A stretch of DNA of 50,609 nucleotides from IMG/VR virus record IMGVR_UViG_3300030102_001719, positions 1-50,609 of that record. One strand, given 5' to 3'. Origin of the DNA: a virus. Below, in pieces: positions 1,835 to 22,824 of the stretch. The notes under the pieces were generated by a model, which worked only from the letters and a program-made list of their open reading frames with translations, was not told where the DNA came from and ran no database searches. How positions within the stretch are numbered: position 1 is the first letter of the stretch; each line of letters opens with the position of its first letter. Both the position numbers and the translations under genes were made by a program.

Positions 1835-2359
1835 ATGAAACAGTTAGCAAGAATTATTAAAGACTGTGGCCACCGTGGAAAGGTGGGCCACATTTATGAA
1901 GTGATAGAAAAGAATCCACGAGATGGATTTAGATTAATAATGCCAGGTCAGAATCAGTTTACGTTTTGGTATCCAGAAGATTGTGTTGAACAGGTAGAAC
2001 CTGGTGCATGCACTGTGCCTGCTTGGGCAGAAAAGGTAAAAGCTTTAGAGGAGATTACCACGGGTCTAAATATAGATAAGTGGAAAGTTCCTAAGGATGC
2101 TGATTTTGCATGGCACTTGGACAAAGTTACTAAGTCCATTACAGATTTATTGAAGGAAAAGAACGCTGCGTATGGAAACACGGCGTTGAATCCTCTTGGT
2201 ATCTTTAGTAAGCTTGGTGCAGCTGAAGCTATCAAGGCTAGAATAGATGATAAGTTGGCCCGCATATCTAACAAAGGTCTTAACGATGATACAGAAGACA
2301 CAGCTAGAGATCTAGTTGGTTATCTTTTGTTACTGTTGATGGCTATTGATAGGGATTAA
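1835..2359 (+). CDS. DUF1599/Nmad1-like protein with N-terminal beta-barrel domain
   Basis: The C-terminal half (residues about 95-174) has an all-alpha pattern: KEKNAAYGN, LGIFSKLG, then RIDDKLARI and DDTEDTARDLVGYLLLLL. I recognise this as the DUF1599 / nucleotide-modification-associated domain 1 family, related in shape to MazG-type NTP pyrophosphohydrolases (KNxxYG, an Arg-Asp-Lys helix, and a Glu/Asp-rich helix ending DLxGY). The N-terminal 60 residues (GHRGKVGHIYEVIE...FTFWYPEDCVEQVE) look like a small SH3/KOW-type beta barrel. A role in nucleotide pool or modified-base metabolism is plausible next to Ung, but the substrate cannot be read from sequence. It is the last rightward gene and its 3' end overlaps the oppositely oriented giant gene by 17 bp. 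Confidence 0.75.
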   Translation: MKQLARIIKDCGHRGKVGHIYEVIEKNPRDGFRLIMPGQNQFTFWYPEDCVEQVEPGACTVPAWAEKVKALEEITTGLNIDKWKVPKDADFAWHLDKVTKSITDLLKEKNAAYGNTALNPLGIFSKLGAAEAIKARIDDKLARISNKGLNDDTEDTARDLVGYLLLLLMAIDRD

Positions 2360-5300: not shown

Positions 5301-7334
5301 CTCTGCAGATAGTTTATCATATTTTTGTGGATTGTTTCTTACCTTTTTTCTTTTTTGTATCAGTGCACCTTTTCTAGATGTGAGTCTTTTTATAAGTTTA
5401 TCTATACCTTTATCACCAAATAGCTCATTTGCTAGTGGTATTTGTTGTAAGAACTCATTACCTGACAGGCCCGCCGCTTTACCACCGGCTTCCATTTTGA
5501 CTACCTTGCCAGTTAGCTGGTACTTACCATCTATCTTTTTACTTTCATACTGCACGTGTATAGGTATAACACGAGATTTTCTTACATGCTTTACACCATA
5601 CTGTCTTTGTAGTATATCTTTATATGCACCTATCTGCATATTGTACTGATCCATTTTACCTACGTGTGGATTCTGTATAATCCTAGCATTCTTACCATAG
5701 CTTTGTACGAACTCCGGTCTTGGTGTAATGAACTTGTAGTCTAGTACATCTACCGTACCATCAGAGTATATAAACATAAGGTCAATTGTACCTGCAGTTT
5801 CTTCTGCTACTAAACCTTTTCTACCTATAGGGTCATATACAATCTGCTCTGTCTTTACTACAAGTTCTCCTTCAGGATCTATCTTTGCTTGCATTTCTTT
5901 TGCATTTGCATACTGCTCAGCTGCTAAAGAATATAGTACATTAAACTGCCCTTCAGTTAAACCAGACTCTTTTTGTATTTGCTTCTTATCACCTTTCTTT
6001 TCAGATAGAAGAATCATTATACGCTCCATGGTGTTGTGATGATTTGTACCACCGGTTCTTTTTATCTCATTGTTGCGATTTTCATTTATTTCTATTGCAC
6101 GTTCTTTACCTACATTACGTATAAACTGTGCACTAGGCTTATCACTTACCCTGTTAGCAATAATCTTATCTGCCTCTGTATCATAGTAACGCTTAGTTGT
6201 TCCCGCGGGATCTAGTACTATCTGTCTACCAAGTGCAGCTAGCTCTTCAACCTTTGCATTCTTTACATCTCTGCTTTCTAGTCTTCTACTAGTTTCATCT
6301 AGCTGGTTAAGTATACTCTCAACTCGCTGCTTGTCTGACATTGGATTTGTGTCTTCCGCCTGGAAGAATTGCTCTGTTCCTAGGTCAACGTTCTTTAATT
6401 CTTTTATACCATTAAGCTGGTCATTCATTATAGCAAACGACGCCTGCGCAAATGGATCGCTCTTAGGCATCTTAAATGTTTTTCTAATAAAGTTCATTAC
6501 CTTATCAAACCATCTTCTAAATCTTGATACTTTCTGTGGTGTGTCAGCCCCGGTTTCTTGTGCTACTATTTGTTGTGCAATTACTTTACCTATTGCTTCT
6601 TCTCGCATTAGTATAGGATCATTCTCATACTGTTTTTGGTAGACAGGATTGTTCATCACATTGCCAAACGCCTCATACTGTTCTATCTCCCGCATCATGG
6701 ATTTGTATAGCGGGCTACCTTTTGCTCGTAAGTATTTTACAAAGAAGTGAGCTGCTTCTTCTGGTAGAGTATCTAGTCCGGCCTTGCCTTCTACGACTTC
6801 AACAACCCTGTTTAACATGTCAGCTTTTGCTACAACATCTATTGGATTACCATTTGCATCTAGTATCTCATCTACTGCTTTGTACTCTACACCTATTGTA
6901 TCTAAGAAACTACGCATTTTATTGTTTAGCTCTATGCCCGGATCTCCCTTAGCAGCCACCTGATACTGTGGCGGTAAGAAGTCTCCGACATCATTGAACT
7001 CACCAACAGCTGTAGCAAATGGCTCTGCTATGTACTTATCTCTATTGAAGTTTTCTACTATCTCATAAGAGTACAAAGTAGATTGGCCTAACTTTTTATA
7101 ATTAATACGATGCCTGGTGTTCATCAAAGCATTGTATTCTTTTAATCTTTTGTTTACATTTTTTACCTGCGCATTAGACAAACCTTTGTTAGGGTCTTTA
7201 GGTAATCTTAGATCTACCTGGACGTTAGGCGTCTTGTTATTGTTCTTTGTATACATGCTATACGCTCCATACAAACCAACGTTTGATACTAACTTAATCC
7301 AGTCTGGGTGTTTTCTATTGGGACATGTAGCCAT
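2343..7334 (-). CDS. Giant virion-type protein (1,663 aa) with RecB-like PD-(D/E)XK nuclease domain
   Basis: The N-terminus has a CPNRKHPDW segment like that of other large phage ejected proteins. Residues about 185-265 resemble a zincin domain, but the usual HExxH reads EEAAH (192-196). Residues about 500-585 carry a RecB/Cas4-type nuclease signature: AGTID with Asp518, then DVLDYK with Asp532 and Lys534, followed by QYNMQIGAYK (Gln563, Gln567, Tyr571). Long helical, charged segments follow, including coiled coil and an aromatic-rich helical part (FFQPWQDDFTMR). Near the C-terminus is one short hydrophobic helix (LRMVLLLATSLLALGM). It is the last gene of the leftward block and starts directly after the RNAP stop (TAAATG). 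Likely packaged and ejected with the RNAP and acting on host or phage DNA; the catalytic motif is seen, the role is inferred. Confidence 0.8.
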   Translation of the reverse strand: MATCPNRKHPDWIKLVSNVGLYGAYSMYTKNNNKTPNVQVDLRLPKDPNKGLSNAQVKNVNKRLKEYNALMNTRHRINYKKLGQSTLYSYEIVENFNRDKYIAEPFATAVGEFNDVGDFLPPQYQVAAKGDPGIELNNKMRSFLDTIGVEYKAVDEILDANGNPIDVVAKADMLNRVVEVVEGKAGLDTLPEEAAHFFVKYLRAKGSPLYKSMMREIEQYEAFGNVMNNPVYQKQYENDPILMREEAIGKVIAQQIVAQETGADTPQKVSRFRRWFDKVMNFIRKTFKMPKSDPFAQASFAIMNDQLNGIKELKNVDLGTEQFFQAEDTNPMSDKQRVESILNQLDETSRRLESRDVKNAKVEELAALGRQIVLDPAGTTKRYYDTEADKIIANRVSDKPSAQFIRNVGKERAIEINENRNNEIKRTGGTNHHNTMERIMILLSEKKGDKKQIQKESGLTEGQFNVLYSLAAEQYANAKEMQAKIDPEGELVVKTEQIVYDPIGRKGLVAEETAGTIDLMFIYSDGTVDVLDYKFITPRPEFVQSYGKNARIIQNPHVGKMDQYNMQIGAYKDILQRQYGVKHVRKSRVIPIHVQYESKKIDGKYQLTGKVVKMEAGGKAAGLSGNEFLQQIPLANELFGDKGIDKLIKRLTSRKGALIQKRKKVRNNPQKYDKLSAEIESIQQSLTALQLNGGLDTVLTEVARQVRSLEKRIGVKDKFLPDGAENPDYIEMDELVDLIDKFSLYTGMSKYSRDFFNDLREVDEAAYNKLVKRFDRASGVIQRTHEDLKSELADRVVGMGQEFGVGDPTRLVKEFSFLTKTFATASEFDHPVFQTAWGYIDRAQQRTRRAQNELEKEIKKYQGGVEQWAKDNGMSLMDAFNLMIDENTGNLVGKYTPEYYQRVRDAAKNNDVAWAKETFQKKEGYQEKFEKWKEREFARIDEMFADYEEYNEKTGKYEKVPDPNNVRAKKREAMKQAWLNAHDLSRDSAWTSPKAWYHLEIKPEKEALYYSDKYRYLNDRKPLKEFFDFYQRTNRKFAEMSGLGIKGNFIANIHQDIIDSIAAGNYDLSSDTLLEGLKIREDDNFKGGMLDEITGLPIATIPALYMAPVRNSNGEVDNSLKTKDLGRALYLMGKSVHNYAHKSEIEAHILALQSFLIDNPAALRDATGNAFLDKTGKLAEKMNSRDTLETFEQLYVNFYLYGQRIQTKDADWGGYSKNKVIQGAKQYFSAKVLGLAFIPGTAAYLAAKASAYMEGAKGLHYNNKQMAETHRLFYKQKDKYLGLVNFFQPWQDDFTMRVANNLSASKLVKTATMDKLYYPYRKADEMIDNNILIAMSQNYGVNEQGMPKRLELLPEGSKSIFELTTINEDGLKIEGMSEEGMNKFRGIVRYVGGTVKGQMSDEDINVVNTTLTGNVVMQFKNWMPRLVRERLGAFRYNPVADVYEQGRYSVIAGEAWQLEENFFGKIKGTLTTALKLSADATTFGLGYKMKANKEVAEKLFKQYLQDNPDNPNIQKMSFNEYFAMRQGQIRAAAAELRMVLLLATSLLALGMKGEDDERLYTKTWATRKLYSSLSRTAMELGFLSNPNEMVSFIRTPVPMTGVVIDALKATNNTWDEVVDAITQREDNRDKTPWGYYSLPFFPGYKQMSRILEVYEQSKVNPYQ

Positions 7335-10300
7335 TTAACATTCAAATATTGTGCGCAACGTATCTAAGTGTGCTGTTAACGCAGGGTTAGTGCTATCAGG
7401 TATAACTAGTTTTATGTTTGGATTAGCGTCAAGTAAACTTTTTATTATCACTACTCTAGAATCTATTTCTTGTTGAGTAGATTTGTTACCAGGCTCTAAT
7501 CCTAGTGGTGGTAGCAAGAAGGTTTTACCTGGGTTCTTCTTTGCTAGCGTATCTATTTTACCTATAGTATCTGCAAATATAGCAAAATCTACCGGTTCTC
7601 CATACTGTGCTTTTATAGGTGCAGATATTACATTAGACTTAGCTGTAAATCTTTTTGCTATTGGTAAACCTTTTGCCTTGGCAACTCTAGCCAAACCATT
7701 TGCAAATGTTCCCGACTGGTCTACTGGTACAATTGGTATACCATCCATATTAAATATGTCACCTGTAACAGTTTGCTTACCTCTACGCATCTCTTTTACA
7801 TTTGGATCTAGAGTCTTGTCAGTGTAATCTTTACCATCCAACATAATGTTATTAGTGTTAACCATAGATATTATGTTTCTTGGACCATATTCCTGCAGGA
7901 GCATTCCGTTACCTAATGTAGGTATTTGCTCCCATACCATAGTCCATGCTTTTCCTGGAGGTTTCTTTCCTTCAGCTAGTGCTTTAGTTAAAGTTTTATA
8001 GTTTGCTTTAGAGTCTTCAGTAAGCTTAAATAATTTTTTAACTGTAGTTTTCTTACCTGCTTTTTTTAATCTTGCCCTTTGCTCTTTTGATAATGATGGG
8101 TCAGGTATAATTACAGATATAAACTCTTGAGGAGGAACATTAGGAGATGTCTTTTGTTTAGCAAGTCTTCCAACAACTCTTACAGAATTGCTTGTTCCTC
8201 TAGGTAAATCTACTTTTCCTGTTGTTGCTTCATACTCAAACGTATGCTCATCAACATATTGTTTAGTATACTCAGGAACTACAAATGGATTATTAAAATT
8301 ATTTCTGTAGAATTGTAACCTAAAGTTATCTAGATTAACATTGCTTTGTTCTTTTGTTCCTGCTAAATACTTCTTCAATATAGGCTCAACTATTTCTATG
8401 TATTGTTGAGCTGGTATTAAATCCATAAAAGATACAGGAGATGTTTGCTGTCCTGATTGTAGTATTATAAACTTAACAATATCTTTTGCAAGCTCTGGAT
8501 CTTTCTCCATCAGTACCTGCATGTCTTCTATTAATGCATTACGCTCAAAAGATGTAAGACGTTTGTTAAACTTCTTTATATTTTCTGTAGCATACTCAGG
8601 ATGTGTAGGATCATATGTCTGCAGTATTGGAAATAACTCATTTAGTATTAATGACTTCTTAGTTGTTTTCTTTAGCTGCATTACTCTTCTAGCTAAACTA
8701 GGACTATCTTTGGTTCCTTGGAATAATCTAGAAGCATCCTTAAATAACTCTTGCTGATTCTCTGTTCTAACTGTTTGCAGTATATAGTTTACTAATGCGT
8801 TTTCTACCATGCCTGCAAATCTTGCCTTATCATCATTTCCTATATCTCTACGATTTATAATATCTACTATTAGAGAGTCTAGAATAAACTCAGCATCTGC
8901 TTTACGCGTAGTGGCAAACAGACTGTCAAACATTTTAGACGAGTCTTCTAAAGACTGTTCAAATGATTTTTGAAAACTTTCATCTAAATACTTATCTAAG
9001 TTTACAAATTTGTTTTCAGCCTTTAACGTGTTTAACTTCATTACCTGCATCTTAGCCTCCATTCTATTCTTAGGGGCTAAACCAGATCTATCACCAGTAA
9101 CTGCTTCGGATAACTCCTGCATTGGAATGGTTAACCCTTGATAAATATCAAAGTATTTTTCAGCTACTTGTTTTTGGAATGTATGATAATCAATCAAGTC
9201 TTGCGGTGTAAACTGATCTAACAGTTTTGCTTTTTGCTCAGGAGCCATACTGCTAGACATCTCTTCAAACTGTCTTGCTTTTTCACCTAGAGCTAACATT
9301 CTTTCCATTGATGGAATAGTATACTCAACTCCTGCTTCAAAATCTGTGGGCAATCCTGACAATGCAGCAATCTCTTCAGCTTTTGTTTTATGTTCTTCTG
9401 CTATTTCTTGATTTATTTTTCGTAGACTTACAGCCGGATTTTCTGTCTTTCTAGCAACCATCTCAAATAGAGCAGGCTGTGTCATAAACTTAGACACAAA
9501 CTCTAAAGGAACACCTGCTCTAAGCATAGATATGTATGTGCTAGCAGTAGTTAAGTTACCGTTTATGTCAAATACAAACGGATCTTTGGATACATCTACA
9601 AAGGCATTAATAAACTCACCTATAATTTCTGACACATAGTTTCCTCCTAACGCATCCCTAGTTCCTCCCATTGGAATAGCCAAGCTTCCATCTTCTAGTT
9701 CTATCATTTCATATGCAGGCATGCCTATAGAAAAGTCTGGGTCTACTCTTAACGCTAGTCCAGCACGTTGTGCCTTTATCTGATGTGTGTTAGCTACGGC
9801 TGCAATACCTAGGGCTTTCTTACCTGCTAAGAATCTGTTACCCATCTCTTGTATAAACTCAAACTTAAGCAGATCACTAAATCTAGGCGCTTGATTAGAC
9901 TTTCCTTGTAGACCTCTAATAACATTAGCCATGTCTTTCAATCTCTGAGCTCCAACCGGTCTAACTAACTGTTCATAGTTAGTCTCATTTAAAACAATTT
10001 TTCTAGAGTTAGTTAAGATTTGATTCTGAATAGCTTGTGTAGCATTCTGTCTTTCTAATGGTATGTCTTGTTTGTCGACTGCATTAGCTATTTGTGAATC
10101 AATCTTTTCAAACTCTTTAGATATTTTATCTTTAAGACTTTGAATAGATACATCCATGCCAGTATCCGCATCTTCTATCTTAGACAGTCTGCGCATTTCT
10201 AGTAGTCCTATCTCAAAGTCAATGCTATTTCTTTGTGATCTAGTAGCTTTCTTTCTTTTCTTATACAGATCATCAATCTGTTTGCTTACTTCTTGTACCT

Positions 10301-13300
10301 CTGGATTCTGATAGTTTTGATAATCTAGTTGTTTTAGTTTAGCAAACTCTTTATTCATTGCTACAACCTTATCTACAACAGCATCACCTAATCCTACCTG
10401 CTGTGCTAGTGTAGCATACTTCCTAGGATCTAAAGTTCTAAGCGCTTGTGCTCTTTCAGTACTTGTAGAGTTTGCATTAGTTAGGAATGGTATAACATTT
10501 AGTTCATTCTTGCTACGGTTGTATGTATAGTTAGGCAGGAATATAGATAATTTATCAATATCAAAGTCACTACCAGCTTTAACTACAATCTCTGACGGCA
10601 CCATGATAGCATCACCGGCCTCTTGTGGTAAGAAGCCTGCTATCTCAATTGCTTCTATAGAGTTCAATGCTGATGTTGGGATACGGAATCCATACACTTC
10701 AAGCATCTCTTTGCTTCCTATCTTTTCACCGTCTCTATATACACCATCTTCTCTTATAGTAACATCCTCTCCAATTAACTCCTTGAAGTAGTGCGGTAAC
10801 ATTACTTGCATTGCTTTTACTTCACCATCTTCTTTTCTATAGAACTGTAATGCAGCAACGTTTGCTCCATACTTGTGCTTATCTTGGTATACAGTACGCT
10901 GCTCTACTTCTATACCTGCAGATGATACCTGTACCTTAGCGCCCCCAAATGTTTTATAGTTTACAATACGGTTAGATACTAGAGAGTATAGAAGGTTTTC
11001 TATCTTAGGCTTGTTGCCTAACACATCTAGTACTCTAGTTTCTCCCGATAGGAATTCTTCTAGGCCGTCTAGATATGCATCAGACATGTCTCGTCTTTCA
11101 GCTTCGGCTCTTAATACTTCTACAAGCTTTTCATATCCTTCCTCACTGATGATAAACTCATCACCTGCGTCCTCTATTCCAAACTCTCTTTTTAAAGATT
11201 CAAACTCTGCCTCAATTAGTTCATTCTCTAATACCTGCAGTCTTTTATCTATGGCAGCAACTTCTTTATTTACAACTTTACCATTCTCATATGAATTGGA
11301 AGCAAGCAATGCTCTTTGCTGACTACCTTTAGATACTTTTGTTTTTACTGGGTTTTGAGTTTCAACTTGTATACCCATAAAGTCGTAGTACAGTTCTGAT
11401 ATGCTAGCCTGTTCTATTCCAGCATAATCTCCAGACTCGTCATAGAAGTCATTAGATGCATTATCTGTTCCCACAACTTTACCTACTTTAACACCACTTT
11501 CAAATACTGCTAGTCCTACCTGGTTGTCTATCATGTCATCCAACATCTTACCTAGATTACTACCTTTACCAATAGTCTCTACTAGTTGTGGGTATATAGG
11601 TAATACAGATAGCTTGATAAACGCAGGTGAGTATATACCTGTAGAGTATGTAGGTCCGTAATACTGTGGTTTTAGTGGAGGGAATACTGCCATCTCTTGT
11701 GCAGATAGTGGCTGACCTTCTCTAACTTTTTTATATGCAGCTCTTTGGTCTGGCGTAACGTTACCTACACGCTCTAAGAATTCCATATACTCATCAATAG
11801 TCATGTAGCCTTGCGCATCTGCTTCATCAAACTCTAAGTATGGTCTTAGTATTTCGTATACCTCTTCTGTCTTAGGGTCTAGTTGTACGTTAGGTGTTTC
11901 TAATTTAATTTGTATAGCCGCAGGATCTGCTCCATACGCCTGAGCATACTCTAAAAATCTTTCATTAGTTATAGAAGCTTTTACATCTCTATAAGTTATA
12001 TGGCGCATCTTACCATCTGCAGTCTTACCATCTAATCTTTCATAGTTCTGATTCAACCAGTCATTTACTTCTACACTGTTATCTGCAAATAGCTTAGGTC
12101 CGTGTGGCCCTGACGTACGTTTGAAGAATGAGTCTGGCTTGAAGAATCCTATGTCTCCTAATATAGTTATAGTTTGCTCTATGTTACCTGTTTCATGTAG
12201 CATCACAAACTTCTTAAGCATATTCATTACGTCTCCTTCTAGCATAGAGTTGTGAACGCCGCTCTTCTCAAAATCTAAATTGTTCTTAGCAAGTATTTGG
12301 TCTGATACCTCAACGTTATATTTTATATTGTTTTCAGGATCTACCTTAATTAATTTATTTTCTATACCTGCTCTAAACAGTTCTTTAGCTCTAGTCTCTA
12401 AGTGTGTTCTTAAGTCTGCTTCTATAGCCTCTTTGTTCTCAGCCATATATGCATCTATGTTTCCTACTCCACCTATATCTAACAGGTTTACCGAGGTTAC
12501 ATAGTCAAATATTCTTAGCTGTCCCTTATTTGTTTTGTATCCATCTATAGAGTTACCGTGGTCACTAAGAGCTTTGTATATTTCTTGTCTTAAGTACTTA
12601 GACATTTGACTTACATACTCTGCTTCTGTCTTAGGCATAAGATCTATAAGTGCAGAGCCTTCTTCATTCCTTGCATTTAAGTCAAATACAAATTGTGATT
12701 TCTTTTCTGCTGGTCTTATCTGTGGTATTCTACCATCCAGCACAGCGTTGAAGTCTGTTCTAAATCTTCTAGAAGGTGAGTTGTTTTCATATACAAACCC
12801 TCTACGGTTACCTTCTTTCTTGATACCATTTAGCGTACCCATGCCTATTCTCATACCACCCATGCTTCCTTCTAGGAATATAGAGCCTCTAACAGACTCC
12901 ATCAACTCACCGGTTTCAGGATCTATAAAGAACTCGGGTACACGACCGTTGTTTAGTCTACCTACTATGTTAGTTGTAAAGTTATTTGTTATTACACCGT
13001 AAGCAGTTTTACCATCAGCTGTTTGGAATTGTAGGTCTACAGACTTTTCAGTTCTATCAGCTTGTATATCTATAATCTTTTTAAATCTACTAAACGCTCC
13101 GCTTTCTCTACTAAATATATCCTCTATACTAACACCCTCTTCACCAAGCTCTACTAGTTTAGATAGTATACCTGTACCTTCTGATGGTACAAGCTCTGAA
13201 AGAATATCCATTCTTTGTTTAGTACTGAGAGATTCTGGGTTAGTAAACTCTACACCCATGTAGTTTAATATTGCAAGAGCATCAGCCTCATTAATGTTGG

Positions 13301-16300
13301 CTCCTTTACCTGCAAGCTTAGCAAGAGTCATTTGACGACCATTAACATTAAATGCTTTGTTAGCCTCTATAACCACTCTACCAGTTTCCGGATCTACAGA
13401 GAAAGGTCCTTTACCCTCTTGCACTCTTTCTTTAAAGTTAGCTCTAAACTCTGACATAATAAGAGCAGACTCTCTATCTGCGTTAGCAGGCATAAATGTA
13501 ACATGTCCATTCTCTGCGTCGTATATAGCTATAATATCTTCACTGTTAAATTTATGGAACTGCTGTCTAAACTGTCTTTGTAGTTTAAACTCATTAGCAG
13601 TTAATGCGGATGGATCCTTAGTTACTTGCAATCTGTTTATAAGAGTTGTGATAGGACCAGGTGTACCAGCTATGTCAGCGTACTCTGGGTGCTCTATAGC
13701 TAACTCTCTTAGTTTATTTATCTGATCTGCAAATGACTCAGTACCCGCTAGTCTTTTAAGAACTAGATTGAAGAAAGGCTTGTAGTCTACTAGTCCTAAA
13801 CCATAAGCACTATTTGTATTCTTCATACTTCTAGATGCAGGCAGTGTAGCAATTAATAGTTTTACAGCAGCTGGGGCAGTGTCCTTTAAATTAATTTCAT
13901 TGTTCTCATTTATATTGTAGCTATCTCTTAGCTTAGTAGACTCTGCATTTTCTTTTATCTCTAGTTGTACTTTAAACTGTTCTAGGAAGTCAAACACAGA
14001 CTGTGTAACAGCTGTCGTATTATGGTAAACCATCGCAGCTAGGTTATCTATATCCTGCTGCACTTCTGGGCTTGCATTTTGTCTTATCTTGTTTAGATTT
14101 GTAAAGTATGTACGATACGTAACATTCATTAACTCTTGCATCTTTTGTTTCTTTGCATCTGAGTTATTCTTAGATGACAAGTCTAACAAGTCGGCCATAC
14201 TGAATCCAGGTACCTGGCCGTTGAACAAGTGTCCAAACATTATACGAGTCAGTGATTCTGTAATAGCCTTGCTTTGATCTACACTTATCTTAGAACCATC
14301 TGCTAGCGTAATACGCTTATCCATAGACATTGCAAAGTCTGGATTGTTTACAGGTTGTACAAATCTGTTATCTCTAATACTGTCAAAGAACTGTTGCAGT
14401 CTTTGTCTATCCACTGCCGGCCCTCTACCAAGCATTGTGTTAAAGAATTCTTTGATTGCATTAAAGAATCGTTTTATAAAATTACTATCCTTATTTGTTT
14501 TGTTGCCTATCTTATACTTATCTCCTACTAACATGTAAGATCTAAACTCTTCAGCAAGTCCCTCTTCTATATTTTCTGTCTGACCAGTAAGTCTTGTGAA
14601 TGCATCTTCTATCTCCTGTTTAGTTTCAGGAGTAGTAAATCTACCCGCTACTATGTGATATGCTTCGTGATATACTGTACCTTCTTGTGCTAGATCTGAT
14701 AATAATACTCTAGCAGCATTTAAAGTTCTACCATATGACTTACCATCAATAAGTCCATCTACTACTTTGATTGGTATGTTAGGAAACTTACCTTCAAACC
14801 ATGCTATCTCTGCAGGTATATTAGCAGCTTTGTATTGTTCTGTAACTTCAGAAGCTAGCAAGTCTTGTACTTCAGGTCCCATAGTAGGATCTTCCATCTG
14901 CCCACCAAACTTAGCCAAGATGTCCACAGTAGATGGGGCTTGCTTTGATTCAGAGTCTTGAGCAGTGTACGCTTCTAGTATAGCTTGATCCACACTAGTA
15001 GGATTAGTTTGCTTAGCAGCATCTACTTTTGGTGGGACTATAACATTCTTTTCTGAGACTTCAAATCCAGCGGTAAGATTAGGGCTTACTTCTTTTGCTT
15101 TAGATATAGCACCCATAAATGATAACTCTTTCTGAGCATTATAAAAATCAATAATCTTTACAACAGCAGGATTAACATCATCGCTCTTAACAATTATCTT
15201 GTTATCATTACCTTTACTTATCTCATAGGTTCCTATAAGTGAACCATCCGCTTTGGTAACAGTAAGATTATAGTCTTGCCCAACTACCATATCAGGAGTA
15301 TCAAGACCGGTATCCTCTTGTGCTCCCTCAGTAAGGTCTGTAGGCGCATCTGTTTTTGCTACAGGAGCGACAGGAGACTGCTGAGGCATAGATTGCCCGT
15401 AGTCATACTTTAGGTATGTTCTCTTTATCTGTGTGTTGTTTACATCTTTAGACATTGGAACTATACCTGTAGTAAGTGGAGGTGTAGTGCCATCTTCTCT
15501 TTGTAGGAACAGATAGTCATTGTAGCTATCATATGTAACACCAGGTTGCGTACCTTCAGGTGTTACAACTACAGATGTGTACGGCTTATTAGGTTTGTTT
15601 AAAAGGCTCTTATCTATGTTGTGATTCTTTGTAGCTAAGAACTCTTTTAACAATTGTACGTTTGCTTCGTTATATATATCTACAGTTGTACTAATCGGAT
15701 TCCCATCAGCGTCAGTACTATTAACTACATCAGCTGGAGCGTTTGGATCTAGACTTCTTATATCAATCTTATTGCCACCAAAGTTTAGGTATGTAATATC
15801 TCCCTCTCTTGCTGCGTATATTTCAAATGACTTAGAGTTAGGACTATCTGTAGCTCTTCTGTTAAATCCAATTAAACTGTTAAGGTATGGACGAACTTGA
15901 ACATCAGTTCCTTCTATAATGTTGGCAGTAGCTGCAACATCTTTGTCAGTTGAGTGTAGCTTTGTACCATATGCTGCAAGTATTTGTACAACAGTTTCTA
16001 TTTCTGTATCAGTAAGTGTTCTAGTTTCTAGCGGCACTGGGTAACCTTTGTGTACCGCATATGGCATACCTCTAACTACCTTATACTTATTACCACCTTC
16101 TTGTATAGTTGTAAATCCATCAGGGCCTGTTACACCTGTAGCTACACTAATTTTTACTTTCTTAAGTTTCTTTTCATCGTTTGTTATTCTACCGAGAGCA
16201 GCACCCTTTACATAGTTGCCATCTGCATCTTTCTGCATAACAGCGGTACCTCTACCCTTACCTGTAATTCTAAACGACACAGGCCCTCTAGATAATAAAA

Positions 16301-19300
16301 TCTTTCTTCTAGAAGTCTTATATGCTTCTGTAAGAATATCAAACTGTGCTTTATTGTCTTCGTTTACACCAGAAAACTTACTACCATCTTCATTAGGCAG
16401 TAGTTGCTTTGTGTATATAAGTCCACCGTCCTCTGATCTAGCGTACTTTTTATTTACCTTATCATAAACAGCTAGTACTATATCAGCGCTCTCCGGCGTA
16501 GCTTCTGAGCCTGTAAAGAACTCATCTTGGTTTAGTGCATCTATGTCTTTTTGTTCTAAGCCTGCACTTTCTATATTACCTCTGTGGAATGCACGAAGCT
16601 CATATCTATCGTTTCTTATATCGTTAGGCAGTATATTGTCAATAAACTTAAAGAATCTTCTTTGGTCTGAAGACATGTTCTCTTCGCTAGTATCCTCAAA
16701 CTTATTCTCTACATCTATACCACCAGTCTTACCATATCCTACAGCAAATGCATCAGGCTTAGTGTGCGTCTTGTCTTCATTAGAAATAAAGTCAGCCGTT
16801 CTACTAGGCCCGTCTATTGTTACGGCCTCACTAGATTTAGGAGCTGGGGTAGCTACATTTATACCTCTTACTTGGTCGTATATTCTACCTTCTTCTACAT
16901 TTATAGCTGCAAGCCTTTTCTGTAAAGCAGTATAGTTTGTACCAAATATAATGCTACGCTGCACTTTTTCCATGCCCTTGTATTTATTATCTAAGGCATC
17001 AATCATAGCTGCCTCTCTTTGCTTAGCAGCACGCAATGTTGTTTCTAATTTTTCTAACTTTTCTTCTGTAGCAAAGAACTCGTCTTCCAAGAACTTTTGA
17101 TCTTCTCTTTTCTTATACAGATCCTGGAACTCAGAGTACATCTTTGGTCTATTTACCAATAGATCTGCAAACTCAGGATATTGATTAGCTAGATCAGCTT
17201 GTTCATTAGCAAACTCTATAAACTTAGCAGCATCTAGAGGATTTGCTCCTGGATATGTTTCTTTGAATTTTGTATACGCATTGAAGAACCTATCTTCCAT
17301 AAGTATATCCTTCAACACATCATAATAGTTCTTTGTCTTTTGTGCGCTATCTTCAAGAACAGCTATCTGATCCATCAACTCTTCTAGAGCTTGCTCAGTT
17401 CTACTTATAGAACCTTGAGCATTTGTTTCTAACTCAGTTCTAGTTGACAGTTTAACTTTACCATCAGGCTGCAAGGTAGTGCCTGATATTCCTAATTGTT
17501 CTAAACCTTGTTCTTTTAGTTGTTTTTCTAACGCAAGTCTATCCTCCATAGGAAGCATAAATGCAGACTCAGTCTCTTTCAACATCTGGTCTAGGAACTT
17601 AGCATTCTCTCGTATAACTTCTACATCCCCTTGTAGTTGATCCCTTTTCTCACTAAGCTCTTGATATAAAGACTCTGAAAGCATCATATCATTCTCTAGT
17701 TGGGTTATACTTACAAACCTACCTTTCTCATCACGACGAGTTTCGTATCTCTTAAGCTGGACTCTCATAGCCTCAGCTCCATAGTTCAGTCTTTTATCTA
17801 GCTCCTCTATTTCTTTCTGTATCTCTACTAGTCTTGAGGTATCAGTTTTCTGTATTCTTTCTATAGCCTCTGCTACCTTACGTCTTTCTATTGCATTCTG
17901 ATCTAGTACAAATACATTTGGTTTAAGAACACCGTTTGACATAATATCATCCATTGATATTTTATCATTAGCATTCTTAACATTATATAGAGTGGTTGGG
18001 TCTAAGAATTTATAATATTTCTTTTTACCATTCTCTGTAATCTCAACCTCTCCATCTCTGTTTAAGTTGTAGAACTTTACTTTATCATTCTCTCTAATAG
18101 CCTGCTCACTTTCAACTCTTTGGCGCTCAGCTTCTTCCTTATTGTAGTCGTCCATGTAGTACTCAATCTGCTGGAACGCCTCTCTTTGTCCTTCAGGATC
18201 AGTCAGATTATTATATAAATCAATAAACTGCTCACGTCTAGCTCTAAGCATTCTAAGATCTCTAAGTGTAGAAAGCATCTCTTCTTGAGATTCTGTTTTA
18301 GCAGCTTCATTAGGATTATTCTTTATGAACTGATTCATAATGTTAGCATCCTCACGAGTGTTCTGACCAAAGCCATTTAAAGCACTTTGCTGTAGGGCGT
18401 CTCTTGCAACCTCTAACTCTGCTCTAGCTTCTGGTGATAGTTTGTCAGGACTGCTGTCTTCTAATGTATCGTCCTTTCTAAGTACATCTTCTATTTGCTG
18501 TAACTCTCTATCAACTGTAGGAGCTTTTTCACTATAGGCAGTATTAAAATCTATAGTAGTACCAGCTAGCTCGTTTACTCTTTTTTGTAAATCAGCTTCT
18601 CTTAAGTCTACATTGTCTGCCACAGCTACTGCATGTGTTAGCATGTCTCTTACCTCTTTTGAATACTGCGCAAACTTTGGGTTATTGTTTATCTGATCGT
18701 GGGCCTTCTTTATCTTCTTAGCCTTTTCTATTGCAGAGTCTACTACTTTGTTCTTTCTATCAGTAAGTTCTTGCTCAGTCATAGTAGAGGTATCGTAACC
18801 CATATCTTTTGCAAACTGTTCGTTACTAGATTCTCTAACAGATTCAAAGTCTTCTAATACATGCTCAAACAATCCAGCCTGTATTCTAGAATCTACATAG
18901 CTATACATCTGATCGTTCTCTGCATTCTTATATGCAAACATGTTTTGTTCTGCTAACGCCGCATCCATCTCTTGCTGTAAGCTTGTAGCTCTAGAGAAGT
19001 TCTCGAAGTTACTTTTCATGTTTTTTATAGTGGCAGCCGCATTAGGGTTTTTGTTTAGATAGTCTACTAGTTTATCTGTACGTCTTCTCTTATCCTTCTG
19101 TTCTCTAATAGCACCTACAATACCCCCTTGTATTTCAAACTGTCTTTTACCAGTAGTTTGAGATTTAGCATATGTAGGTATACCCATAGCACCTAGTAGG
19201 AATCCTAATCCTATTTCTTTCTGTGTATCTTTAGCTCCGTATGTTTCTATGAATGTATCATCCAAAGATCTTATCAAGTCTAATGCTGCGTTAACACCAT

Positions 19301-20609
19301 GAGGTCTATCCTTTTTAGAATAGTATTCAGCTGACGCATGTCTACCTGCATTACTTAACCATGACTGTCCACCTTCTTCTACAAAACCTTCGTAGAATGG
19401 ATTCTTAAGAGCGTGGTATGCAGCACTAACGTACTTACCTTTACCCATAGATCTATATGCTGCTCTATAAGGAGCTGTTATAGCCTCCTCTCCCGCATCT
19501 CGTACAATCTTTCCAAAACTTCCAGACATAGAACGTGCTCCAGGTCCAAATATTTTTGGGAACTGCAACATGTTACCACCACCTACAAGGGCAACGTTAG
19601 TTGTAAATACAGAGTTAGCTGATTGTGTAGCTAAGTCTTTTATAAAAGCTAGCTCTTGATCTGTAGGCTGTCTTCCATTCTCAGAAACAAAGTCCTCTAC
19701 CAGGTCTTTTTCTACACTATCTAAGTGATGTCTTGCTTCTACACCTGCCTCATATCCAGCACCTGTAACAAGCTGTCTCATTACCTTAGATGCACCCCTA
19801 GCTTTTTGCATTGCTGATAATCCTCCACGAGTTAGCCTAGCAGCATCACCCATCTTATCAGTCATCTTTGCAGTTTTACCTGCAAGTCTAAACATCTTTT
19901 TTGCTCTTGCTAATAAACCAGCTGTTGCTATAGCTTGTGCCGGGGCTGCCCCACCAAAAGTTGCCGCGGTAGCAGCTGATAGCGCTGCTTCTGTTATAAT
20001 AGCACCTGCTATAAAAGATAGTCCATTAGTAAAGTCATTAGCCCAGAAGTTCCCTGTACCTAAGCTTTTAAAAAACCCTAAGTCTCTTTCTTCTTTTGCT
20101 ATATAGTTAGGTAAGTTGTAGTCTAAGGCTTCGTTTATATCATCAAGACCACGTGTAAACTCATTATCAAATACAGACTTAAAAGAGTCTGCTGCATCAG
20201 CATCTGTCATTGCATACTTACCCAAGCCATATAAAGATGTAAATATAGTTCCTATACCACCAGCTACAGCTGTGGCTGTTTTACCAGTAAGCTTACCTAC
20301 AGCGTTACCCCATTCTGTAGCAGTACTCTGACCGTATGCGGCTAGATCTGTAAGGTCATCATTCTCAATATTGATTGGGGTTCTTACAAAGTCTGGGGTT
20401 TGATATAGCTTTGCAGCTCCGTCTGAAGCATCTTCAAATAGCTTTTGATCTGCAGATGTTCTACGAGTAAGACCCATAAAGCTTTGACCTTCAACTGGAT
20501 CTACATCCAACGAAGTCTCAGCCTCTTTTGCTTTTGTTAACCCCTCTTCTAAACCTGTATCTTTATCTATCTCAGATTTAAACTCTCTTAAGTTTTTTAG
20601 TATACCCAT
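7335..20609 (-). CDS. Giant crAss-type virion RNA polymerase polyprotein (4,424 aa) with zincin and macro-like domains
   Basis: Residues 105-135 and 195-234 are Gly/Ala-rich hydrophobic stretches that may contact membrane during ejection. Residues about 500-1280 are mostly charged helix and coiled coil. HEAYH at 1981-1985, followed by EEGLAEEF near 2015-2022, forms a zinc metallopeptidase (gluzincin) signature. RNAP is shown by RIPTSALNSIE and then VVKAGSDFDIDKLS, where D3348/D3350/D3352 correspond to the DxDxD metal triad of crAss-like virion RNAPs (DFDID in Cellulophaga phage phi14:2 gp66). Residues about 4283-4424 (GDIF...PIVPVDQSGTFANGLARVAK, then NPGKTFLLPPLG) resemble a macro-type fold. 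The RNAP of phi14:2 is about 2,180 aa, so this appears to be a fusion of RNAP with a neighbouring giant protein. It probably enters the cell with the DNA to transcribe early genes. RNAP identity is strong; the N- and C-terminal assignments are weaker. Confidence 0.88.
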   Translation of the reverse strand: MGILKNLREFKSEIDKDTGLEEGLTKAKEAETSLDVDPVEGQSFMGLTRRTSADQKLFEDASDGAAKLYQTPDFVRTPINIENDDLTDLAAYGQSTATEWGNAVGKLTGKTATAVAGGIGTIFTSLYGLGKYAMTDADAADSFKSVFDNEFTRGLDDINEALDYNLPNYIAKEERDLGFFKSLGTGNFWANDFTNGLSFIAGAIITEAALSAATAATFGGAAPAQAIATAGLLARAKKMFRLAGKTAKMTDKMGDAARLTRGGLSAMQKARGASKVMRQLVTGAGYEAGVEARHHLDSVEKDLVEDFVSENGRQPTDQELAFIKDLATQSANSVFTTNVALVGGGNMLQFPKIFGPGARSMSGSFGKIVRDAGEEAITAPYRAAYRSMGKGKYVSAAYHALKNPFYEGFVEEGGQSWLSNAGRHASAEYYSKKDRPHGVNAALDLIRSLDDTFIETYGAKDTQKEIGLGFLLGAMGIPTYAKSQTTGKRQFEIQGGIVGAIREQKDKRRRTDKLVDYLNKNPNAAATIKNMKSNFENFSRATSLQQEMDAALAEQNMFAYKNAENDQMYSYVDSRIQAGLFEHVLEDFESVRESSNEQFAKDMGYDTSTMTEQELTDRKNKVVDSAIEKAKKIKKAHDQINNNPKFAQYSKEVRDMLTHAVAVADNVDLREADLQKRVNELAGTTIDFNTAYSEKAPTVDRELQQIEDVLRKDDTLEDSSPDKLSPEARAELEVARDALQQSALNGFGQNTREDANIMNQFIKNNPNEAAKTESQEEMLSTLRDLRMLRARREQFIDLYNNLTDPEGQREAFQQIEYYMDDYNKEEAERQRVESEQAIRENDKVKFYNLNRDGEVEITENGKKKYYKFLDPTTLYNVKNANDKISMDDIMSNGVLKPNVFVLDQNAIERRKVAEAIERIQKTDTSRLVEIQKEIEELDKRLNYGAEAMRVQLKRYETRRDEKGRFVSITQLENDMMLSESLYQELSEKRDQLQGDVEVIRENAKFLDQMLKETESAFMLPMEDRLALEKQLKEQGLEQLGISGTTLQPDGKVKLSTRTELETNAQGSISRTEQALEELMDQIAVLEDSAQKTKNYYDVLKDILMEDRFFNAYTKFKETYPGANPLDAAKFIEFANEQADLANQYPEFADLLVNRPKMYSEFQDLYKKREDQKFLEDEFFATEEKLEKLETTLRAAKQREAAMIDALDNKYKGMEKVQRSIIFGTNYTALQKRLAAINVEEGRIYDQVRGINVATPAPKSSEAVTIDGPSRTADFISNEDKTHTKPDAFAVGYGKTGGIDVENKFEDTSEENMSSDQRRFFKFIDNILPNDIRNDRYELRAFHRGNIESAGLEQKDIDALNQDEFFTGSEATPESADIVLAVYDKVNKKYARSEDGGLIYTKQLLPNEDGSKFSGVNEDNKAQFDILTEAYKTSRRKILLSRGPVSFRITGKGRGTAVMQKDADGNYVKGAALGRITNDEKKLKKVKISVATGVTGPDGFTTIQEGGNKYKVVRGMPYAVHKGYPVPLETRTLTDTEIETVVQILAAYGTKLHSTDKDVAATANIIEGTDVQVRPYLNSLIGFNRRATDSPNSKSFEIYAAREGDITYLNFGGNKIDIRSLDPNAPADVVNSTDADGNPISTTVDIYNEANVQLLKEFLATKNHNIDKSLLNKPNKPYTSVVVTPEGTQPGVTYDSYNDYLFLQREDGTTPPLTTGIVPMSKDVNNTQIKRTYLKYDYGQSMPQQSPVAPVAKTDAPTDLTEGAQEDTGLDTPDMVVGQDYNLTVTKADGSLIGTYEISKGNDNKIIVKSDDVNPAVVKIIDFYNAQKELSFMGAISKAKEVSPNLTAGFEVSEKNVIVPPKVDAAKQTNPTSVDQAILEAYTAQDSESKQAPSTVDILAKFGGQMEDPTMGPEVQDLLASEVTEQYKAANIPAEIAWFEGKFPNIPIKVVDGLIDGKSYGRTLNAARVLLSDLAQEGTVYHEAYHIVAGRFTTPETKQEIEDAFTRLTGQTENIEEGLAEEFRSYMLVGDKYKIGNKTNKDSNFIKRFFNAIKEFFNTMLGRGPAVDRQRLQQFFDSIRDNRFVQPVNNPDFAMSMDKRITLADGSKISVDQSKAITESLTRIMFGHLFNGQVPGFSMADLLDLSSKNNSDAKKQKMQELMNVTYRTYFTNLNKIRQNASPEVQQDIDNLAAMVYHNTTAVTQSVFDFLEQFKVQLEIKENAESTKLRDSYNINENNEINLKDTAPAAVKLLIATLPASRSMKNTNSAYGLGLVDYKPFFNLVLKRLAGTESFADQINKLRELAIEHPEYADIAGTPGPITTLINRLQVTKDPSALTANEFKLQRQFRQQFHKFNSEDIIAIYDAENGHVTFMPANADRESALIMSEFRANFKERVQEGKGPFSVDPETGRVVIEANKAFNVNGRQMTLAKLAGKGANINEADALAILNYMGVEFTNPESLSTKQRMDILSELVPSEGTGILSKLVELGEEGVSIEDIFSRESGAFSRFKKIIDIQADRTEKSVDLQFQTADGKTAYGVITNNFTTNIVGRLNNGRVPEFFIDPETGELMESVRGSIFLEGSMGGMRIGMGTLNGIKKEGNRRGFVYENNSPSRRFRTDFNAVLDGRIPQIRPAEKKSQFVFDLNARNEEGSALIDLMPKTEAEYVSQMSKYLRQEIYKALSDHGNSIDGYKTNKGQLRIFDYVTSVNLLDIGGVGNIDAYMAENKEAIEADLRTHLETRAKELFRAGIENKLIKVDPENNIKYNVEVSDQILAKNNLDFEKSGVHNSMLEGDVMNMLKKFVMLHETGNIEQTITILGDIGFFKPDSFFKRTSGPHGPKLFADNSVEVNDWLNQNYERLDGKTADGKMRHITYRDVKASITNERFLEYAQAYGADPAAIQIKLETPNVQLDPKTEEVYEILRPYLEFDEADAQGYMTIDEYMEFLERVGNVTPDQRAAYKKVREGQPLSAQEMAVFPPLKPQYYGPTYSTGIYSPAFIKLSVLPIYPQLVETIGKGSNLGKMLDDMIDNQVGLAVFESGVKVGKVVGTDNASNDFYDESGDYAGIEQASISELYYDFMGIQVETQNPVKTKVSKGSQQRALLASNSYENGKVVNKEVAAIDKRLQVLENELIEAEFESLKREFGIEDAGDEFIISEEGYEKLVEVLRAEAERRDMSDAYLDGLEEFLSGETRVLDVLGNKPKIENLLYSLVSNRIVNYKTFGGAKVQVSSAGIEVEQRTVYQDKHKYGANVAALQFYRKEDGEVKAMQVMLPHYFKELIGEDVTIREDGVYRDGEKIGSKEMLEVYGFRIPTSALNSIEAIEIAGFLPQEAGDAIMVPSEIVVKAGSDFDIDKLSIFLPNYTYNRSKNELNVIPFLTNANSTSTERAQALRTLDPRKYATLAQQVGLGDAVVDKVVAMNKEFAKLKQLDYQNYQNPEVQEVSKQIDDLYKKRKKATRSQRNSIDFEIGLLEMRRLSKIEDADTGMDVSIQSLKDKISKEFEKIDSQIANAVDKQDIPLERQNATQAIQNQILTNSRKIVLNETNYEQLVRPVGAQRLKDMANVIRGLQGKSNQAPRFSDLLKFEFIQEMGNRFLAGKKALGIAAVANTHQIKAQRAGLALRVDPDFSIGMPAYEMIELEDGSLAIPMGGTRDALGGNYVSEIIGEFINAFVDVSKDPFVFDINGNLTTASTYISMLRAGVPLEFVSKFMTQPALFEMVARKTENPAVSLRKINQEIAEEHKTKAEEIAALSGLPTDFEAGVEYTIPSMERMLALGEKARQFEEMSSSMAPEQKAKLLDQFTPQDLIDYHTFQKQVAEKYFDIYQGLTIPMQELSEAVTGDRSGLAPKNRMEAKMQVMKLNTLKAENKFVNLDKYLDESFQKSFEQSLEDSSKMFDSLFATTRKADAEFILDSLIVDIINRRDIGNDDKARFAGMVENALVNYILQTVRTENQQELFKDASRLFQGTKDSPSLARRVMQLKKTTKKSLILNELFPILQTYDPTHPEYATENIKKFNKRLTSFERNALIEDMQVLMEKDPELAKDIVKFIILQSGQQTSPVSFMDLIPAQQYIEIVEPILKKYLAGTKEQSNVNLDNFRLQFYRNNFNNPFVVPEYTKQYVDEHTFEYEATTGKVDLPRGTSNSVRVVGRLAKQKTSPNVPPQEFISVIIPDPSLSKEQRARLKKAGKKTTVKKLFKLTEDSKANYKTLTKALAEGKKPPGKAWTMVWEQIPTLGNGMLLQEYGPRNIISMVNTNNIMLDGKDYTDKTLDPNVKEMRRGKQTVTGDIFNMDGIPIVPVDQSGTFANGLARVAKAKGLPIAKRFTAKSNVISAPIKAQYGEPVDFAIFADTIGKIDTLAKKNPGKTFLLPPLGLEPGNKSTQQEIDSRVVIIKSLLDANPNIKLVIPDSTNPALTAHLDTLRTIFEC

Positions 20610-20610
20610 G

Positions 20611-22824
20611 TTATAGTCCTAATAGTTTTGGATCGTATTGCTGATTGAAGAAGGCATTTTCTATAGATTTATACTGATTGTGTTTTGGGTGATCTGGATT
20701 ACTCTCTATCTCCCTAAGTGTCTGTAGATTACTCTCACCCATCTGAACTCCAATCAAAGATAGTAAATTATTTTCTATGTTGATTAAATTAGTTAACTGC
20801 ATAGCAGCTAGCGATCTTTGATTTGCAGGAAGTGTAGACACATCAAAGTTCATAGGATCATCTGCCATCTGCATAATAGTGTTCATATCAAATCCTGCAC
20901 GAACTAGTGGTGATAATTGTTGAGTTGTTTTTCTCTTGTTGAAATCAGCAAATGTCATTTCACCGTGAACTAAAGCATCATAGTCCGCTTCATTACTCAT
21001 ATATTGCTCGTAGATACCTAAAGTGTTTGCAACTCTAGCTGTAAGACCTAGATGTTTTGCAGCTTGACTAACCTCTTTTGGTTGCACTGTATAGAACTGA
21101 CCTTTATAGTTTAATGTTAAAGCTTCATGAGTACCTGTAAACATATCAGGCATAGTAAGTCCTGCAAAGTTTGCACCACCCTCTAGTCCAATGCTTTCTA
21201 TTATTTCTGACATCTCTTCTGCGCTAGCAATATCACCGTTTGCCTTCATAAAATTAAAGTCATTAGCAGATAGTTGAGATCTTAATACACTGTTTACCTT
21301 ATTAAGTTCTGTAGATCCCTCAGGTGCAAACGCTATTCTATCTGAAGTTTTAATCGCAGCTGTGTTTGTATAGTGCTCATACAAATCATCACCACCCTTA
21401 TCTTTAAATAAAGTGTAGTATTCTTCAGCTACCGCTTTAATATTTTCTAAATCTTTTTCATTATAGTTAGTACCAAACATATCATTAATATCATCAATAC
21501 CAGCATCTAACATGTTCATTAGATTTTTAAGCTCACCTTTACGCCCTAACAATGGAGCTCTCACATTTCTAAAGCTAGTACGAGTAAATAGATCGCCTTC
21601 TGCAGTATAAACAGATCTCTTAACGTCTCCTCCAAAAGCTCTATCAGTACCAAAGAATGATTGATCTGCAACTAGCTCCATAAGCAGTGGTTCTATAGCA
21701 GCATACTTAGCATTGTTACCACTAAACAATTCTTGTCTTAACTTGTTAGCATTTTGAATTTCTTCATTTGCAGTCTTCAGAGAGTTAGCAAACATGTTGT
21801 TACGTTTGTTAGTTACATTGGCTAACTGTATCTGAGCTTTTCTTTTCTCTTCATCACTTGTTGCTTCTCGCATTGCATTTAGTGCTGAAGCATACTCGTT
21901 TTCTACTTGCTCAAATGTACCCATACCTGCATCAATAGCACTGTTACCTGGTAGTACCATTACATTATTCATCCCCATTGATCCTGCACCACTTTGCTCT
22001 GGAGCTTTCATGTAATCAGGAACCAGACCTACCTGCTTCTCAGCTACATCTCTCATACTTTGTACAATGCTGTTGTATGCTTCTTCTTGACTTAGTCCGT
22101 CAATCTGTGTAAGCTTTTTTAGTTCTTGTTGTCCTTCTGATGTTGCTATGTATTCTTCTAGTAAGCCTTCAGCTATTCTATCAGCTTTAGCACCACTAAC
22201 ACCCGTCCATCTTTCTAGCAGTCCTAAAATATCACTAGGGCCTAGTCCTGATCCAGACTTAGCAATACCTTGTAGCATCTGTTGCTTCTTAGCATCATAG
22301 TCCATCATTAGCTCTGTACCACCGTGGTATATATTACGAGTCATAGAACCATCTTCATTCTGAAAGAAAGATTGGTGTGTATCAAAAGCATGCCCAATTA
22401 TTTCTCCCGTCTCTTCATCTCTAACCACGTTAAAGTCTAATACTTTTCTACCAGTCTCCATCTCTATCTTACGAGCAGCTTTTATTTCTGCCTGTCTGTT
22501 TGCATAAGATTGCGACGCTAGCTTAAGTCCTTCATTCATAGCAAAGTCTTGAGCAATACCATCTACAATGGCACCCGCGTTTTCATAGTCTCCTACCATA
22601 ACTGTGTTTGCCATCTTATCATTTATATCAGCTATAGCATTATCTTTTATATACTGATCACCTCCACCCACTTGAATGCCAGCTAAACTTCTTTCTACCA
22701 AGTCATGCTTCTGTTTGTTGTTGTCATAACGTTGTCTTAGTAACTGATTTACCTGTACACTTTGTGGATCTACATATTGAGATACATAAGGTGTGAGACT
22801 ATATTTACTATACTTGTTTGCCAT
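20611..22824 (-). CDS. Probable cargo/internal virion protein (737 aa)
   Basis: No enzymatic motif is visible. The chain is acidic, Gln/Asn/Met-rich and mostly helical, starting SLTPYVSQYVDPQSVQVNQLL and then a charged coiled-coil-like segment (RQRYDNNKQKHDLVERSL). This N-terminal organisation resembles proteins encoded immediately upstream of the RNAP gene in crAss-like phages, which are packaged in the tail and ejected. No signal peptide or transmembrane helix is present. The gene lies two bases after the 897-aa gene (TAATTATG junction) and one base before the RNAP gene. The cargo role is inferred from position and composition; a structural scaffolding role cannot be excluded. Confidence 0.7.
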   Translation of the reverse strand: MANKYSKYSLTPYVSQYVDPQSVQVNQLLRQRYDNNKQKHDLVERSLAGIQVGGGDQYIKDNAIADINDKMANTVMVGDYENAGAIVDGIAQDFAMNEGLKLASQSYANRQAEIKAARKIEMETGRKVLDFNVVRDEETGEIIGHAFDTHQSFFQNEDGSMTRNIYHGGTELMMDYDAKKQQMLQGIAKSGSGLGPSDILGLLERWTGVSGAKADRIAEGLLEEYIATSEGQQELKKLTQIDGLSQEEAYNSIVQSMRDVAEKQVGLVPDYMKAPEQSGAGSMGMNNVMVLPGNSAIDAGMGTFEQVENEYASALNAMREATSDEEKRKAQIQLANVTNKRNNMFANSLKTANEEIQNANKLRQELFSGNNAKYAAIEPLLMELVADQSFFGTDRAFGGDVKRSVYTAEGDLFTRTSFRNVRAPLLGRKGELKNLMNMLDAGIDDINDMFGTNYNEKDLENIKAVAEEYYTLFKDKGGDDLYEHYTNTAAIKTSDRIAFAPEGSTELNKVNSVLRSQLSANDFNFMKANGDIASAEEMSEIIESIGLEGGANFAGLTMPDMFTGTHEALTLNYKGQFYTVQPKEVSQAAKHLGLTARVANTLGIYEQYMSNEADYDALVHGEMTFADFNKRKTTQQLSPLVRAGFDMNTIMQMADDPMNFDVSTLPANQRSLAAMQLTNLINIENNLLSLIGVQMGESNLQTLREIESNPDHPKHNQYKSIENAFFNQQYDPKLLGL

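Follow-up and report, generated by a model that had tools for sequence, protein, structure and literature searches.

The window analysed here, meaning the whole stretch of 50,609 nucleotides, comes from a 51.4-kb metagenomic virus record (IMG/VR). It carries on its minus strand an open reading frame of 4,424 codons, running from an ATG at 20609 to a TAA at 7337-7335 with no internal stop (Table 1). The N-terminal part of the product (residues ~80-2100) is homologous to a separate virion protein of crAss-like phages, gp47 in crAss001 and gp67 in phi14:2, and the C-terminal part (residues ~2110-4424) to their RNA polymerase (RNAP), gp50 and gp66, respectively. The order of the cargo genes is conserved on both sides of the fused gene. 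The RNAP stop abuts the in-frame start codon of the 1,663-aa gene that follows it (TGT TAA ATG; 7331-7337, minus strand), as it also does in the relative L009.

Table 1. Features of the fused gene and its neighbours, with positions in the window.
Feature	Position	Strand	Basis
Cargo-RNAP fusion ORF	7335..20609	minus	4,424 aa plus stop; full-length relatives
Conserved all-helical N-terminal domain, residues 80-480	19170..20372	minus	common to phi17:2 gp39, crAss001 gp47 and phi14:2 gp67 (phrog_32390)
Charged helix-rich (coiled-coil-like) stretch, residues 481-1250	16860..19169	minus	composition; putative
Zincin-like domain, residues 1890-2089	14343..14942	minus	profile matches, AF2 core, BFVD matches
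HEAYH, H1981-E1982-x-x-H1985	14655..14669	minus	motif and alignment
E2016, candidate third metal ligand	14562..14564	minus	alignment column; putative ligand role
Cargo/RNAP junction, residues ~2090-2110	14280..14342	minus	probable; crAss001 gp47 ends and separate RNAP genes start here
crAss-like virion RNAP (gp66/gp50 homologue), residues 2111-4424	7338..14279	minus	homology
RNAP catalytic core, residues 2920-3717, aligned to phi14:2 gp66 951-1657	9459..11852	minus	alignment and profile
DFDID (3348-3352), DxDxD catalytic motif	10554..10568	minus	motif and alignment
1,663-aa RNAP-associated protein (crAss001 gp49 / cr108_1 gp52 homologue)	2343..7334	minus	homology; downstream
737-aa gene, slot of cargo protein C2 (crAss001 gp46)	20611..22824	minus	position only; upstream
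897-aa gene, slot of cargo protein C1 (crAss001 gp45)	22827..25520	minus	position only
1,631-aa virion structural protein, crAss001 gp44 homologue	25523..30418	minus	homology

An intact frame joining cargo protein and polymerase

The sequence-only reading had described an intact 13.3-kb frame in which the DFDID motif lies some 2,000 residues beyond its position in gp66, and our analysis bears out both statements: the frame encodes 4,424 residues on the minus strand, and the motif starts at residue 3348, compared to 1361 in the 2,180-aa gp66 of phi14:2, an offset of 1,987. Given the base composition, the chance of an open frame 4,424 codons long is about e^-264. Rfam and tRNA searches across the 50,609-nt stretch returned no match, and an intron therefore does not account for the frame; a Pfam scan of the whole 4,424-aa protein found no usable family. 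That assembly might have merged two genes is an idea to which we assign a practically negligible probability. Indeed, separate IMG/VR contigs from other metagenomes (L008, L009 and L010) carry the same frame at full length and at about 94% identity, homologous fusions occur in dozens of further contigs as well as in RefSeq genomes, and these independent occurrences of the same fusion refute an artefact.

The fused chain is under purifying selection. In a codon alignment with L009 (4,425 aa, 93.6% aligned protein identity) we obtained a dS of 0.30 and a dN of 0.034, giving an overall dN/dS of 0.11. The ratio falls to 0.02-0.07 across the stretch from the zincin to the end of the RNAP core and stays below 0.19 in all regions, with the exception of the first 80 codons (0.27).

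In the polymerase half, crAss001 gp50 matches residues 2920-3391 and phi14:2 gp66 matches residues 2920-3717 in two pieces. A profile built from 18 environmental relatives, excluding phi14:2, recovers the crystal structure of phi14:2 gp66 (6VR4) with an E-value of 1.8e-82 over 768 of 769 positions, so that the match to gp66 proposed earlier as a check is found at the sequence-profile level. GSDFDID aligns in a conserved context and its D positions are invariant. From the homology to 6VR4, the chain is expected to contain two double-psi beta-barrels. In crAss-like relatives this RNAP is packaged in the virion and transcribes the early genes (PMC10172136, PMC10136315). An N4-type enzyme, i.e. 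a T7-like single-subunit RNAP, is ruled out, as the polymerase part is of the gp66 type with DxDxD.

In the N-terminal half, blastp matches crAss001 gp47 to residues 84-843 and 1709-2030, collinearly (E 3e-23), phi14:2 gp67 to residues 80-475 (E 5e-10) and phi17:2 gp39 to residues 85-464 (36% identity, E 1e-55). Homology and gene order in the cargo operon agree in assigning this half to the gp47/gp67 type. The AF2 model of its N-terminal domain is all helix, with a pLDDT of 66, and gave no significant match in a fold search of the PDB. Residues ~500-1250 consist of 40-44% K/E/R/D/Q and 4-6% G+P. The only 19-mer reaching a Kyte-Doolittle value of 1.5 spans residues 197-215, and the median of shuffled versions of the same protein reaches 1.86; a transmembrane reading was rejected, the hydropathy being not above that of the shuffles. 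With no PDB fold match for the N-terminal domain and hydrophobic segments at chance level, anchoring in a membrane or channel is conjecture.

Among the features that the sequence-only reading had seen in this half, the coiled-coil-like stretch and the zincin-like site thus stand, and the hydrophobic stretches are weak. Its proposal that the RNAP is fused to a neighbouring cargo protein agrees with the resemblance of the N-part to gp47/gp67 and of the C-part to gp50/gp66 and 6VR4. Moreover, gp47, gp49 and gp50 of crAss001 were all detected in virions by mass spectrometry (PMC10172136), which makes "cargo protein fused to RNAP" a correct description. By these homologies, the fusion of cargo and RNAP in one chain is real.

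The fusion is nevertheless not supported as a singular event: no other state is as frequent in the sampled set. Scanning viral contigs with a profile yielded at least 534 relatives, and the 80 best, a sample skewed toward the kin of this phage, were retained; every long ORF was searched with iterated profiles of the N-domain, the zincin region and the RNAP core, and collapsing the rows at 90% identity left 71. Within this sample of the best 80 of at least 534 relatives, 44 rows are fused, 10 have a separate N-part with the zincin on the RNAP, 6 have the RNAP alone and 11 are truncated, i.e. the fused chain is found in 44 of the 60 decidable lineages. These 44 include the spliced cr108_1 and L077, and a few rows were scored as fused only from the length preceding the zincin. 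On the tree of the RNAP core, rooted at its midpoint, the fusion state switches at least 7 times. All eight named Suoliviridae genomes inspected carry a fused CDS of 4,328-5,794 aa, with the zincin motif, the RNAP core and 1,700-2,600 residues preceding the zincin. A review names as a hallmark crAss RNAP genes that reach ~6,000 aa (PMC10136315), and the study of P23-45 mentions that crAss-like and N4-related phages have the virion RNAP (vRNAP) fused to large proteins whose function is unknown, suggesting that such fusions link transcription to the entry of the DNA (PMC10770324). The fusion itself is therefore not new; it is ordinary within Crassvirales, and the present chain adds one more instance of an architecture already known.

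Variations on this layout were also observed. In L077 the chain is split into two overlapping frames (L077:9272-9309), while it is fused in the near-identical L078 and L083; this split probably reflects an error in sequencing or a frameshift of recent date. The downstream module is joined to the RNAP in L018, L027, L054 and jaberico: L018 (5,721 aa) holds all modules in a single chain, and jaberico the RNAP with the downstream module.

The zincin-like domain at the seam

HEAYH at 1981-1985 is the only HExxH in the 4,424-aa chain, and H1981, E1982 and E2016 are invariant across an alignment of 20 diverse sequences. The AF2 core of the domain has a pLDDT of about 90 and places the motif helix before a helix bearing E2016. 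H1981, E1982 and H1985, together with E2016, would thus provide the HExxH motif and the third ligand of a zincin. Searched against the PDB, the model gave no match with E < 0.001 (the zincin 3e11 appeared at E 3.6), and the domain alignment gave no domain match in Pfam. The fold matches in BFVD are other crAss-like giant proteins, followed by weak matches to MuF and polyvalent proteins. Since the PDB fold search is not significant, we call the domain zincin-like from its motif and topology. In crAss001, gp47 has its own HEAFH at position 2157 of 2,341 residues; the zincin hence belongs to the gp47-type part, and the seam follows near residues 2090-2110. From the dN/dS values with L009, the zincin is more strongly conserved than the remaining N-part.

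All complete RNAP ORFs that include the N-part retain HExxH or HExxE. The HExxE form, in which the second His is replaced by Glu, marks a clade with 24 tree rows, of which nearly all are fused, and arose in a single change on the tree (support 97). Its chains keep His-Glu at the start of the motif as well as the Glu downstream of it (L032, L036, L039, L041, L043, L045, L055, L056, L058, L060, L062, L065, L067, L069, L074, L075, L078, L082-L088 and L091). Even with filters off, the zincin is undetectable in phi14:2 gp67/gp66 (L003) and in L048/L051/L057, which form two well separated lineages where the RNAP is a gene of its own; the N-part ORFs of L048 and L057 end at the contig edge on their 5' side, and their junction end is present. 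In crAss001 the domain is present although the cargo and RNAP genes are split, and the side of the split on which it lies varies (crAss001 versus L035, L059, L066 and L076). This pattern of retention and loss hints that the role of the domain is linked to the fusion, which two events are too few to prove. However, a deletion at the seam removing the zincin could itself have split the genes.

An HExxH also occurs within the first 500 residues of 14 of 83 downstream-module proteins, such as cr4_1 (L004) gp27 (HEILH, 342) and phi14:2 (L003) gp65 (HEIMH, 245). The region of cr4_1 gp27 matches the profile of the seam zincin with an E-value of 1e-5, which suggests a second, related domain.

Ejection of the chain, whole or cleaved

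How might such a chain reach the host? The sequence-only reading had required that it be unfolded or cleaved on its way through the tail and had proposed the internal protease for the cut, which is unproven. The reading that we favour over its rivals, at a probability of about 0.6, is that it is ejected as one partly unfolded chain, whose N-part holds the RNAP at the entry site. The chain would be stored in the capsid close to the portal and leave N-end first through the tail, partly unfolded. Its helical N-part may then stay with the channel or envelope, and the tethered two-barrel RNAP, lying beside the incoming DNA, could transcribe the early genes immediately. The fusion would secure packing at a 1:1 ratio as well as joint delivery. 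The chain may be cut at the seam, but its design is explicable without that. Indeed, partial unfolding has been argued for crassvirus cargo passing a tail barrel of less than 50 Å (PMC10172136), and the N4 vRNAP, with 3,500 residues and an HExxH domain of its own, is packaged unprocessed (PMC5512222) and threads a 30-45 Å tail as one chain (PMC12633501); cleavage is thus not needed. What speaks against this view is that the zincin, kept in the complete fused chains and missing in two split lineages, would lack an explanation if its role were unrelated to the fusion.

One rival reading is a self-processing polyprotein: the zincin (1890-2089) would cut close to the seam, either ahead of packing or once the chain has been ejected, and free the RNAP. 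Consistent with it are the HExxH at the seam with its invariant Glu, both strongly conserved, and the presence of HExxH or HExxE in every complete RNAP ORF bearing the N-part, as is the absence of the domain from phi14:2 and L048/L051/L057, where the RNAP is a separate gene; zincins have moreover been proposed to act as autoproteases in the polyvalent proteins of phages (PMC5512222). We nonetheless find it unlikely, if worth keeping in view. The HExxE clade does without the second His while nearly all of its 24 rows remain fused, crAss001 retains the zincin despite its split genes, the HExxH-bearing N4 vRNAP is packaged unprocessed (PMC5512222), and the deletion by which the genes were split may equally well be what removed the domain. 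The more specific proposal, that the zincin at the seam is a protease maturing crassvirus cargo-RNAP chains in cis, and that it is kept where they are fused, is lost in two lineages with an own-gene RNAP, and in one clade either operates through an unusual HExxE site or has given way to one, appears to us rather doubtful.

Alternatively, the zincin could act on a host target after injection or serve as a structural linker, the fusion being a neutral joining of genes. The interchange of fused and split states at least 7 times on the tree would fit such a role, and so would the HExxE clade, which keeps both fold and fusion with an altered site, and the finding of the domain on either side of the split (crAss001 versus L035, L059, L066 and L076). 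But the motif is found in all complete fused chains, the domain is absent from two split lineages, and its conservation exceeds that of the rest of the N-part, so that we judge this explanation quite improbable.

The crassviruses offer a natural series of variants: fused chains with HExxH or with HExxE, and split genes with the zincin (crAss001, cultured) or without it (phi14:2, cultured). This comparison makes it testable whether giant ejected phage RNAPs cross the tail intact or are cleaved by the zincin that they carry.

Comparison with known systems

The layout has a named counterpart in cr4_1 gp26 (Buorbuivirus, Suoliviridae; NC_055893), which likewise has a long N-part, a seam zincin and an RNAP core in that order, but shares about 22% core identity with the 4,424-aa chain. 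The giant CDSs of cr1_1, cr10_1, cr113_1, cr52_1, cr118_1, cr7_1 and cr273_1 have the same layout and neighbouring cargo genes. Several of these eight Suoliviridae use recoded TAG codons, and our profile of the N-terminal domain did not recognise that domain in any of the eight genomes. The names of their giant RNAPs (L092-L098, L004) are misleading (exonuclease V, DprA-like, nuclear pore complex-like, hypothetical), and search matches in further records are labelled DNA helicase; the comparison thus shows that many RefSeq crassphage RNAP genes bear misleading names.

The arrangement differs in other crassviruses. In phi14:2, gp66 (6VR4) and gp67 resemble the present chain in the DFDID core and the N-domain, respectively, but are two genes, neither with a zincin. 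In crAss001, gp47 (N-part and zincin) and gp50 (RNAP) are separate genes on opposite strands. In cr108_1 (Pipoluvirus), gp54 and gp53 bring zincin and RNAP into one chain of 3,764 aa after splicing. There, a group I intron (RF00028, E 2e-20) lies inside the DxDxD codons (L005:28375-28704, NC_055878); joining its flanks gives GSDYDIDK and the single 3,764-aa chain, where the record annotates two genes.

Outside the crassviruses, the N4 vRNAP (Schitoviridae) is likewise a giant RNAP that is ejected as a single chain and has an HExxH zincin-like domain embedded in it (PMC5512222, PMC12633501). It differs in being T7-like rather than two-barrel and in carrying the zincin after the RNAP; the likeness is one of possible working only, and we claim no homology. 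P23-45 gp96 similarly holds a two-barrel vRNAP within a 5,002-residue virion protein (PMC10770324), but there the RNAP lies at the N-end and is fused to the tape-measure protein of a long-tailed phage.
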